Positions 55,467-60,012 of a stretch of 60,012 nucleotides of DNA are shown piece after piece. Under the pieces are notes generated by a model that was not told where the DNA came from, ran no database searches, and worked only from the letters and a program-made list of their open reading frames with translations. Location of the stretch: the NCBI GenBank assembly GCA_029245125.1, contig JAQWPZ010000196.1:1-60012 (forward strand), read 5' to 3'. Source of the stretch: Rubripirellula sp. (lineage in GTDB: Bacteria; Planctomycetota; Planctomycetia; Pirellulales; Pirellulaceae). Within the stretch, counting starts at the first letter, position 1. Each line of letters opens with the position of its first letter. The translations under genes and the position numbers were made by a program.

Positions 55467-56948
55467 TTACAAAATATCACCGGGCCGGTACTTGGCCGCA
55501 TCGCCATAACGAGCAGTGATATCGTCGATTTTGGCAACCACGTTCCGCACCTGGGCGGGCGCATTTCCGATGAATTGATCGGGATCACCGATGGCAGTCT
55601 TCAACGCTGCGTCATCCAACGGAATTCGCTTATCGGCGGCGATCCGATCAATCAAATCATTCTGCTCGGATCCTGACTCGCGCATCGCGAGGGCAGTTGC
55701 CACGGCATGCTCTTTGATCACCTCGTGCGCCGTTTCTCTTCCCACCCCTGCCTTAATCGAGGCAACCAGAATCTTGGTCGTTGCCAGGAACGGAAGGTAA
55801 CGCCGCAATTCCCGATCGATGATCGCTGGGTAAGCACCGTAGTCCTCGAGAACCGTCAAGAAAGTTTCTAACTGACCATCGATCGCTAAAAAGGCATCTG
55901 GAATGGCAACCCGCCGGACCACACTGCAACTGACATCTCCCTCATTCCACTGGTCCCCGAGCAGACCGCCTACCATCGAAAGGTAGCCTCTCATAATCAC
56001 GCCAAATCCAGTAATCCGTTCAGCTGATCTTGCATTCATTTTGTGAGGCATCGCCGATGATCCGACTTGGCCTGGCCGAAACCCTTCGGTGGCAAGTTCC
56101 GCCCCAGCCATCAGTCTTAGCGTACGGGCGAAGTTAGCAGGTCCCGATGAAAGCTGAGTGAGTGTCGAAACAACCTGAAAATCAAACGAACGTGGATAAA
56201 CCTGGCCGACCGAATCGAGCACTGTCTGGAATCCCAAGTGCCCGGCAACGCGTTGGTCGAACTCATCTAACCTCGAAACATCCCCCTGAAACAGATCAAG
56301 CATATCTTGTTGGGTCCCGACCGGTCCCTTGATGCCGCGGAGGGGTAGCTTCTCAATCAGCGACTCTAAACACTCAAACGCGACCAGAATTTCTTCCGCG
56401 ACATTCGCAAAACGTTTGCCAACGGTCGTAATCTGGGCGGGAACGTTATGACTGCGACCGGCAATCGATAAATCGCAGTAATCAGCGGCACGTTGCCCTA
56501 ATAACGCCAAAACCGCCACGGCGTGATCCCGCACAATTCCCAACGCAGTCCGGATCTGCAGCTGCTCCACATTCTCTGTTAGATCGCGAGAGGTCATACC
56601 TTTGTGGATCTGCTCGTACCCGGCCAAGGCGTTGAATTCCTCAATCCTCGCTTTCACGTCGTGTCGGGTGACTCGCTCGCGAGCATCGATCGAAGGAAGG
56701 TCAACCTGATTTTGGACCGATCGATACGCATCCAATGCCTCGTCGGGCACTTCGACGCCTAAATCTCGCTGTGTTTCCAGCACAGCAATCCAAAATTCTC
56801 GCTCCAACCGCACTTTGGCGACCGGAGACCAAATCTCGGCCATGGTGGAACTGGCGTAGCGGCTGGCGAGCACATTAGGAAGATCAGCAGGCAAGACTGC
56901 CTCCAAGAATGAGAAATCGCTGTAATTCGCAGCGAAATGGGTGGTCAA
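55467..56948 (-). CDS. purB: Adenylosuccinate lyase
   Basis: 493 residues from TTG 56948. TTG 56894, preceded by GGAGG five bases upstream, would give 475 residues and is a plausible true start. The fumarase/aspartase-superfamily signature is GSSAMPHKMNAR. Other family blocks are YASSTMAEIWSPVAKV, HKGMTSRDLTENVEQL and GRSHNVPAQITTVG. It acts twice in purine synthesis, cleaving SAICAR and adenylosuccinate. It is convergent with ppk (163 bases apart) and divergent from the secreted-protein gene. Confidence 0.95.
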   Translation of the reverse strand: MTTHFAANYSDFSFLEAVLPADLPNVLASRYASSTMAEIWSPVAKVRLEREFWIAVLETQRDLGVEVPDEALDAYRSVQNQVDLPSIDARERVTRHDVKARIEEFNALAGYEQIHKGMTSRDLTENVEQLQIRTALGIVRDHAVAVLALLGQRAADYCDLSIAGRSHNVPAQITTVGKRFANVAEEILVAFECLESLIEKLPLRGIKGPVGTQQDMLDLFQGDVSRLDEFDQRVAGHLGFQTVLDSVGQVYPRSFDFQVVSTLTQLSSGPANFARTLRLMAGAELATEGFRPGQVGSSAMPHKMNARSAERITGFGVIMRGYLSMVGGLLGDQWNEGDVSCSVVRRVAIPDAFLAIDGQLETFLTVLEDYGAYPAIIDRELRRYLPFLATTKILVASIKAGVGRETAHEVIKEHAVATALAMRESGSEQNDLIDRIAADKRIPLDDAALKTAIGDPDQFIGNAPAQVRNVVAKIDDITARYGDAAKYRPGDIL

Positions 56949-56949
56949 A

Positions 56950-56975
56950 TGACAGCCTACACGTCTACGCTGTCA
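56950..56975 (-). promoter_or_regulatory. Inverted repeat at the purB 5' end
   Basis: TGACAGC (56950-56956) and GCTGTCA (56969-56975) are perfect 7-base arms separated by 12 bases, lying immediately upstream of the outermost TTG start of purB. It could be an operator or a leader hairpin masking the start. Confidence 0.4.
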
Positions 56976-57160
56976 CTAATTCGGTCTCGGCCCTCAGTCT
57001 CGGTCCTCTGAAAAGCCGTCCAAATCTCTCTGGGGGGATTTTCGAGGCGGTGTTTCGGGCCTAAATCGAGTTCGATAACATACTGGTTGTCCGTTTGGCC
57101 GCAAATCCGTTGAATTCCCAGGCCCCAGAAATCACGGCTTCTTCAAGCATCGGAAATTGA

Positions 57161-59158
57161 ATGATCCACCATTGCTGCCAAAACGCCGCTAATCTGTTCC
57201 CTGCAAAGCGGATTCAACGCAATTTGCCGATCGTTTTGGGCTTCCTGGTCGCTGGCTGGATCTGCCTCACGCTGTCCAACTCATCAGCCTGGGCTCAGGA
57301 TCAAGACGCAGAAAAATTTGTTCGCGCCACCGCGGTGTTGCCTGAATCGACTGCTGGCCTGGTACGAATTCCAAATTTCCCAAAATTCCAAAAAGCTTGG
57401 AAGCAAACGAGCATCGGGCGTTTGGTAGACGAACCCTCAATGCAGCCTTTTATCGAAGCTCAGCGCGAGCGGGTCGAAAAGTCGATGCAGTCGCTCGACA
57501 ACAAGATTGGTATTCGTCCAGAAGATCTTGCCGACATCGCTGCCGGTGAAGTGGTGGTCGCTTGGCTGCCATTCGAAAATGACAAACGCCGTCCTTTTAC
57601 AATTTGTCTGATCGCAGACGTACGGAATCGACGAGCCAAAGCGGAAGCGGTTCTGGAAACAATTGACAAAGACCTCAAGGCTGCCGGTTGGACTCGGAAG
57701 GACGTCGAGCACCGCGAACAAACCATTCGCTTGTACGACACTCAACCAAAGCCTGGCCAACTAAAGATTGAACAGATCGCCATCGCGCTGAGCGACGAGC
57801 GTATCATCGCAACCGACCGAGACACGGTTGTCTTTGGTTTGTTGGACTCGCTTGCCGGCGAAGCCGACAGCAAGTCCATTGAACAAGCAGATGAATTTGC
57901 TGCGGTCTTACGACGTTCTAGCGAAGCGATCCAACAACCTATCCTGGATGGTGGAGCGACCGTCTCCTTGGAGTGGTTCGCAAAACCATTTGAAATGGGA
58001 CGGGTTTTAAGAGAAGCATTCCAAGTCGACCGTGGTAACCAGGTCGATGTGATCAAACTGTTGGAAAACCAGGGCTTTGATGTCATTCGTGGAATCGGTG
58101 GCGTCGTCGCAATGAATGGCAAGAAATATGATTTGATCCATCGAGGATTTATCCTCGCCGATCAAAGCAAAATCGAAAAAGCTGCTCAGATGTTGCAGTT
58201 TGCCAACGATACGCTTAACGAGATCCCCACTTGGGTGCCCGGTCAGGTCGCCTCTTTCAATCGCTTGAATCTTAAAATCAAGGATGCATTTTGGGCGGCT
58301 GAGTCGCTTGTCAACGAAGCTTTCGGTGATGAAATTTTCCGAGACATCATCAGTGGAATTCGCGACGATGAAGATGGGCCGCAGATCGACATCGAAAAAA
58401 ATGTCCTCCCTAACCTAGACGACCAAATCATCTTGCTGACGGATAACGTGGAACCGGCTGACATCCAATCCGAACGCATGCTGATGGCACTTCGCGTCAA
58501 GGATGGAAAGGCAATCGAAAGAGCGATCCGCAAAGCGATGGAAGTCGAACCAGATGCAACCAAACTGGATACTCTGCCAGGGATCGAGATTTGGCAAGTC
58601 CAGCGAACGGATGATGCGGATGACTTCGATGAAGACTTGTTCGGGGACCTAGATTTAGATTTCGGTGAAGAAACAGCAGAAGAAACGCCGCCGCTCTTGG
58701 AACATTGGGCAATCGGGTTGGTTCCCGCCGGCCCTAGTTCCGAAAACGCTTACCTCATGTTCTCCAGTCATCCGGAATTCCTAATCGAATCAGCCAAACG
58801 AATCACCAATGAACCGGTAACTGATCGGCTCGAGCTATCGCCAGAGGCGATAGCCGTTCAATCAGCAATGAAAGACCTCGGCGTCACCAGTCCCGCCTTT
58901 GACCGAATCGTGCGCATGAAAGTGTCACTGCGCACCAAATATCAATTGCTGCGACAGGGACAGTTGAAAGAAAGTGACACGATTTTAGGTTCGTTTTATC
59001 GTCGCATCTTCGAAACCCAAGATGCAGACGAAGCGCAAGAACTCAACACCGCGAAACTACCAGCTTTGAGTGAAATTGAAGAATTTCTACCCAACGGCGG
59101 TAGCTTCTTTGAAACGACCGAGAGTGGCTGGAGTTTCAGCGGTTTTCTTCTGAAGTAG
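57161..59158 (+). CDS. Exported protein of unknown function
   Basis: 665 residues. A signal peptide covers about residues 20-46 (IVLGFLVAGWICLTLSNSSAWA). The mature protein has no recognised catalytic motif. It includes ATAVLPESTAGLVRIPNFPKF, ADIAAGEVVVAWLPFEN and an acidic stretch, DDADDFDEDLFGDLDLDFGE, near residue 490. The pattern resembles DUF3352-like planctomycete periplasmic proteins, a guess only. The stop is four bases before the convergent phosphoesterase gene. The 212-base upstream region holds no gene. Confidence 0.7.
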   Translation: MIHHCCQNAANLFPAKRIQRNLPIVLGFLVAGWICLTLSNSSAWAQDQDAEKFVRATAVLPESTAGLVRIPNFPKFQKAWKQTSIGRLVDEPSMQPFIEAQRERVEKSMQSLDNKIGIRPEDLADIAAGEVVVAWLPFENDKRRPFTICLIADVRNRRAKAEAVLETIDKDLKAAGWTRKDVEHREQTIRLYDTQPKPGQLKIEQIAIALSDERIIATDRDTVVFGLLDSLAGEADSKSIEQADEFAAVLRRSSEAIQQPILDGGATVSLEWFAKPFEMGRVLREAFQVDRGNQVDVIKLLENQGFDVIRGIGGVVAMNGKKYDLIHRGFILADQSKIEKAAQMLQFANDTLNEIPTWVPGQVASFNRLNLKIKDAFWAAESLVNEAFGDEIFRDIISGIRDDEDGPQIDIEKNVLPNLDDQIILLTDNVEPADIQSERMLMALRVKDGKAIERAIRKAMEVEPDATKLDTLPGIEIWQVQRTDDADDFDEDLFGDLDLDFGEETAEETPPLLEHWAIGLVPAGPSSENAYLMFSSHPEFLIESAKRITNEPVTDRLELSPEAIAVQSAMKDLGVTSPAFDRIVRMKVSLRTKYQLLRQGQLKESDTILGSFYRRIFETQDADEAQELNTAKLPALSEIEEFLPNGGSFFETTESGWSFSGFLLK

Positions 59159-59162
59159 GTTT

Positions 59163-59801
59163 TCAATCGAGTTGCAGACAAGCTCGCAGTTCTTCACGGA
59201 CAACCTTCAAAACCCGTTCTTGAACTTCTTCCAGCGGTCCTTCCTGGAATGCACCTGCGGCCGCCTTGTGACCACCGCCACCGAATTGCTGTGCAACCTT
59301 ATTGCAATCGAGTTCGCATCGACTCCGAAAGCTCAGCTTGTAGCCGCCACGAATCTGTCCCACAAAAATCACGGCGGCCTGCGTTCCTTCCACGGCGAGC
59401 GTCAAATTGATCGCGTCCTCGGTATCGCTGGGTAGGGCACCCATCGCTTCAAAATCTTCCTTCCTGACATAGGTGTGAACCAGAGTTCCCTCCAATTCAC
59501 ACGTTGTCCGCGAAAGCACCAAACCTCGAAGCTTCAATCGCCCCAACGTGTCGCGTTCATACAAATCCCCATAGATCTCACTAGGGACGACCCCCGCATC
59601 AATCAATCGAGCAATCACTCGATAAGTGTCGGCGGTCACGCTACCAAATCGAAACCAACCGGTATCAGTGGCAATCGCCGCAAACAGCGGTACCGCTGAC
59701 TTACGGGTCAATGAAACGCCCAACGCGTCTGCAGCTTGAACGACCAAGTGCCCAGTCGCTTCGGCTTGGTAATCCTTGTACATCGTTGCACCAAGGTCGT
59801 G
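59163..59801 (-). CDS. DHH-family phosphoesterase (NrnA-like), C-terminal part, truncated at a junction
   Basis: 213 codons match bifunctional oligoribonuclease/PAP-phosphatase NrnA: HDLGATMYKDYQAEATGHLV, AIATDTGWFRFGSV, and the DHHA1 motif QQFGGGGHKAAAGAF near the end. The family continues upstream with the DHH metal motif and ~130 more residues. Here homology stops abruptly at about 59801, and the upstream frame (to 60005) reads through unrelated sequence by chance. The gene is therefore a fragment created by a misjoin, or a true truncation. Known role of the family: degradation of nanoRNAs and of 3'-phosphoadenosine 5'-phosphate. Confidence 0.85.
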   Translation of the reverse strand, partial: HDLGATMYKDYQAEATGHLVVQAADALGVSLTRKSAVPLFAAIATDTGWFRFGSVTADTYRVIARLIDAGVVPSEIYGDLYERDTLGRLKLRGLVLSRTTCELEGTLVHTYVRKEDFEAMGALPSDTEDAINLTLAVEGTQAAVIFVGQIRGGYKLSFRSRCELDCNKVAQQFGGGGHKAAAGAFQEGPLEEVQERVLKVVREELRACLQLD

Positions 59802-59802
59802 G

Positions 59803-60012
59803 CAAAAAGATAGAACAAATAGGATGATCTTTTCTTTTAGAAAAATTATTTCGTATATTTCAACTTTTACCGCATTAGTTCCTGGGGATGTGATTGTTTG
59901 TGGTACGCCAACAGGGGCAGGAGCAAGGTTTGATCCTCCAATATGGTTGAAGCCTGGTGATATTGTAGAAGTTGAAGCAGAGGGAATTGGAGTTTTGTCA
60001 AACACCGTAGAG
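59803..60012 (+). CDS. Fumarylacetoacetate hydrolase family protein, internal/C-terminal fragment
   Basis: 70 codons open in the plus frame starting at 59803 and running off the window. The translation includes MIFSFRKIISYISTF, then PGDVIVCGTPTGAGARFDPP and WLKPGDIVEVEAEGIGVLSNTV, the C-terminal core of the FAH/MhpD fold (2-keto-4-pentenoate hydratase or acylpyruvase type). The N-terminal part with the metal ligands is missing because homology begins at the junction. By my count the segment is about 40% GC, and 24% in its first 70 bases, unlike the rest of the window. It most likely comes from another, AT-rich organism. Confidence 0.85.

Follow-up and report, generated by a model that had tools for sequence, protein, structure and literature searches.

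A very probably chimeric contig end joining a Rubripirellula DHH/DHHA1 phosphoesterase gene to an internal piece of a Rhodobacteraceae gene

Results

The window analyzed here is the entire contig C273 (60,012 bases), one of the 334 contigs of a 7.06-Mb draft genome that is 91% complete and 2.5% contaminated. At its right end, parts of two genes meet in opposite orientation. Positions 59163-59800 on the minus strand encode the C-terminal 211 of the 332 residues of a native NrnA-like DHH/DHHA1 phosphoesterase and include two bases of one further codon. This part shows 97% protein identity to the homolog in genome G016, the nearest congener. The contig tail, positions 59801-60012 on the plus strand, comes from the interior of an FAH-family gene that belongs to a Rhodobacteraceae hpa gene cluster. 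It runs up to the contig end at position 60012.

The chimeric join can be placed between positions 59800 and 59801, where congener homology ends (at or before 59800) and Rhodobacteraceae homology starts (at or after 59801). The alignment to the congener (locus L003 of G016) holds through 59800, and that to the FAH donor (locus L018) begins at 59801; two segments from different organisms thus meet at one base. An earlier note on this DNA, made from the sequence alone, had put the junction at about 59799-59806, a range that contains the observed switch. The two parents have no bases in common across the join. The motif AGGTC occurs near this point in each parent, with the two copies shifted by one base relative to each other.

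Base composition changes at the same point, with a GC content of 0.547 over positions 1-59800 and 0.396 over 59801-60012, where the note had remarked on AT-rich codons. None of the 1,125 overlapping 212-bp windows in positions 1-59800 has a GC content as low as that of the tail, nor does any of 2,206 windows of 212 bp taken from the portions of 34 other contigs that were examined.

The note had described two incomplete genes meeting within a few bases. Both genes are indeed cut at the join, and the other cut in the FAH gene is simply the contig end at 60012. Its remark that the FAH fragment has no start codon holds for the fragment itself, but not for the mechanical plus-strand frame, which extends through the join without a stop as far back as a TTG at 59776. 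On the minus strand, the join creates a spurious 280-aa open reading frame (59163-60005) that should not be annotated. Of its 280 residues, 211 are native and 68 lie antisense to the FAH gene, with one codon between them that spans the join.

The left-hand fragment has a minus-strand match to Pfam DHHA1 (E 4.5e-9; 37.1 bits, cut-off 25.9), and a second contig of the same assembly, C3, encodes the missing domain at positions 6-365 on its minus strand (Pfam DHH; E 1.2e-9; 38.9 bits, cut-off 28.1). Together the two parts supply the N-terminal DHH and C-terminal DHHA1 domains of a DHH/DHHA1 phosphoesterase, both of which Pfam also finds in the intact protein of the congener. We call the protein only NrnA-like, because the congener protein scores 105.1 bits against the NCBIfam equivalog NF053633 (bifunctional oligoribonuclease/PAP phosphatase NrnA), below the curated cut-off of 350.

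A 1,734-base congener query that spans the intact gene is divided between the two contigs, with query positions 1-236 matching C273:59565-59800 and query positions 233-1732 matching C3:1-1500. The start of C3 thus coincides with the join, and the two contigs have in common the four bases TCGT, which are the native end of C273 (59797-59800) and the first bases of C3. No foreign DNA precedes TCGT on C3. The native continuation of the interrupted gene is thus present elsewhere in the same assembly. In G016 the C273 and C3 pieces map next to each other on a single contig (86.1% and 86.8% DNA identity, respectively) with collinear flanks, whereas in the genome of the window the gene is split between two contigs. 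Read over C273 up to 59800 and on into C3, the protein is an uninterrupted 332 aa, of which 320 are identical to the 332-aa protein of the congener. Among 21 congeners, 20 carry the gene as an open reading frame of 332-367 aa; the remaining one (G010, 66% complete) gave no match. As far as the assembly shows, the predicted DHH phosphoesterase gene is whole in this organism. The minus-strand NrnA-like homology had been noted to stop in the middle of the protein, and it does so after 211 of 332 aa, with the part that bears the DHH domain on C3.

The tail matches Pfam FAA_hydrolase (PF01557; E 8.5e-22; 78.3 bits, cut-off 23.9) over profile positions 147-213 of 214. In a protein scan of genome contigs with the 70-residue fragment, in which the best 80 of at least 488 confirmed loci were kept, the top match among those 80 was Rhodobacteraceae bacterium isolate NAT686 (100% protein identity), followed by the Rhodobacteraceae MAG ERR599122_bin.26 (99%). 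The run behind this second MAG, ERR599122, is presumably a Tara Oceans run. At the DNA level, 211 of 212 bases are identical to NAT686 (L018:4999-5210; the single difference is at 59871) and 204 of 212 to ERR599122_bin.26. The note had proposed a search of the last 210 bases against genomes of AT-rich marine bacteria; the best match here is indeed in a marine Rhodobacteraceae MAG. NAT686 falls within the accession ranges NYSJ-NZZZ and PAAA-PCDB given in PMC5769542 (its own prefix is NZVE), which describes Megahit assembly per sample followed by Minimus2 with OVERLAP=100.

In NAT686 (contig NZVE01000088.1) the intact FAH gene encodes 294 aa and is flanked by HpaD on one side and HpaH on the other; HpaE and an HpaF-like isomerase are encoded upstream. 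The window holds only an internal 212-base piece of this FAH gene. HpaE, HpaD and HpaH exceed their curated cut-offs, and the FAH protein and the isomerase fall short of theirs. Judged by its predicted proteins, the locus is a homoprotocatechuate meta-cleavage (hpa) gene cluster. The donor FAH protein is described here only as an FAH-family member encoded in an hpa cluster, because its score against the HpaG C-terminal equivalog TIGR02303 (155.9 bits) is below the curated cut-off of 276.4. The cluster is compact, with the HpaF-like, HpaE, HpaD, FAH-family and HpaH genes within L018:1426-6028. The GC content of the 10-kb donor locus is 0.379. In the rest of this locus, open reading frames of 120 aa or more encode DSBA-like, CoA-binding, 2Fe-2S ferredoxin, SBP56 and PfkB proteins; a further frame, antisense to the isomerase gene, has no Pfam match.

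The genome's own nearest FAH-family homolog (on C125) was ruled out as the source of the tail, as its protein identity to the tail is only 52%. A distant search with 59803-60012 returned 19 plasmid records at 67.5-77.8% identity, from Rhizobium, Agrobacterium, Neorhizobium and Chelativorans, with the matched region annotated as FAH family in 12 of the 19; these matches were superseded by the Rhodobacteraceae one. Beyond the tail itself, nothing in the genome of the window closely resembles the 10-kb donor locus, the next best alignment being 68% identity over 257 bases on C62.

We then looked for the join in other genomes. Positions 59700-60012 matched 18 of 22 genus genomes (the window's own included), and four gave no match. 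No match crosses the join in any of the 21 congeners; the 17 that match do so on the left side only, ending at or before 59800 (query base 101). Among 149 genomes drawn from the donor's family, which include NAT686 and ERR599122_bin.26, there is likewise no crossing, and 10 match on the right only, from 59801 onward (query base 102), in a search that scored at most four candidates per genome. When positions 56000-60012 were compared with the NAT686 and ERR599122_bin.26 genomes, only 59801-60012 matched. The 25 bases at the junction have no exact match in IMG/VR viral contigs. The same junction in an independent genome, which the earlier note had named as evidence that would count against its reading, is thus found in none of the congeners, donor-family genomes or IMG/VR viral contigs searched.

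Discussion

Chimeric contig ends are a kind of artefact found in metagenome-assembled genomes. C273 resembles them in that unrelated genomes are joined inside genes, the foreign end is short, and the continuation lies on another contig. We consider it very probable that the last 212 bases of C273 are such an artefact, introduced when a chimeric fragment or read was incorporated at the contig end. Comparison of the sequences identifies the two parents, locates the join to the base, and establishes C3 as the native continuation. An artefact at the contig end explains why the parents are unrelated, why both genes are broken in mid-gene, why the tail is nearly identical to part of another organism's genome, why the gene continues on C3, and why the join does not recur in the genomes searched. 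Under this explanation, DNA of the window's organism, a planctomycete by the note's label, would have been joined end to end with AT-rich DNA of a Rhodobacteraceae bacterium, both organisms presumably being in the same sample. The join would have arisen in library preparation or assembly; the chimeric fragment or read would then have extended C273, and the true continuation would have been output as the separate contig C3.

The note had left open a choice between an assembly chimera and a very recent recombination. The first is the better option and is well supported, as C3 begins with the rest of the DHH gene and the tail is identical at 211 of 212 bases to the inside of an intact Rhodobacteraceae gene. 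A real and very recent insertion or recombination of Rhodobacteraceae DNA into the DHH gene, with interrupted and whole alleles coexisting in the population, is very unlikely. The near identity of tail and donor would fit a recent event, and TCGT at both the native end of C273 and the start of C3 could reflect a target-site duplication of 4 bases. Against this, the insert would be the inside of a catabolic gene, and no mobile element turned up in the 10-kb donor locus: 10 of its 11 open reading frames of 120 aa or more match metabolic, other non-mobile or FAH/hpa families, and one matches nothing. Moreover, C3 lacks foreign DNA before TCGT, and the gene is open in every congener in which it was matched. 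There is only a very slim chance that a minor part of the population truly carries Rhodobacteraceae chromosomal DNA, very recently inserted into the NrnA-like gene and flanked by a TCGT duplication. The long minus-strand frame invites a further reading, in which the DHH gene is truly truncated and fused to FAH antisense sequence, producing a new 280-aa protein. The frame is open to 60005, yet the N-terminal part with the DHH domain continues in frame on C3, and in the donor FAH gene, where there is no join, the same antisense frame already runs for 103 codons without a stop. We regard a new protein as vanishingly improbable; the note's view that this frame should not be annotated as a protein is borne out by the 68 residues antisense to FAH and by the openness of the frame in the donor alone.

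How the chimera formed is a separate question. An assembler might have crossed between the genomes through a common k-mer, and AGGTC does lie near the join in both parents. The common sequence is at most 5 bases, however, and offset by one, and the k used by assemblers is usually far above 5 bases; such a repeat-driven misassembly is highly improbable. A physically chimeric library fragment or a template switch is probably the more likely origin than k-mer confusion, given that the two parents have no sequence in common at the join itself. The start of C3, just 4 bases back from the join, is not explained by the artefact itself and depends on the assembler. In a typical chimeric contig end the continuation starts about one k-mer back, and a pair of plain de Bruijn contigs is expected to overlap by near k, unlike the 4 bases of C273 and C3.

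The join at the tail is almost certainly no real biological feature but an ordinary artefact, and its relevance is for curation only. The foreign bases 59801-60012 should be trimmed from C273, and C273 and C3 can be placed as neighbors. Doing so would keep from databases a false fusion protein and a false case of gene transfer between distant bacteria.

In a comparison of GC content alone, the C273 tail is the lowest of 65 contig ends sampled from the 668 in the assembly (the right ends of C24, C28, C31, C32 and C34 were left out). By this measure there is no sign of a systematic fault, as none of the remaining 64 sampled ends carries a comparably AT-rich tail. The second most AT-rich of the 65 is the left end of C14 (L135:1-212), with a GC content of 0.448 compared with 0.524 further in. 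The right end of C26 (L156) and the left end of C28 (L158) have a short repeat in common within this genome, with 14 common 25-mers over both strands, that is, 7 distinct ones, which would amount to about 31 bases if contiguous.
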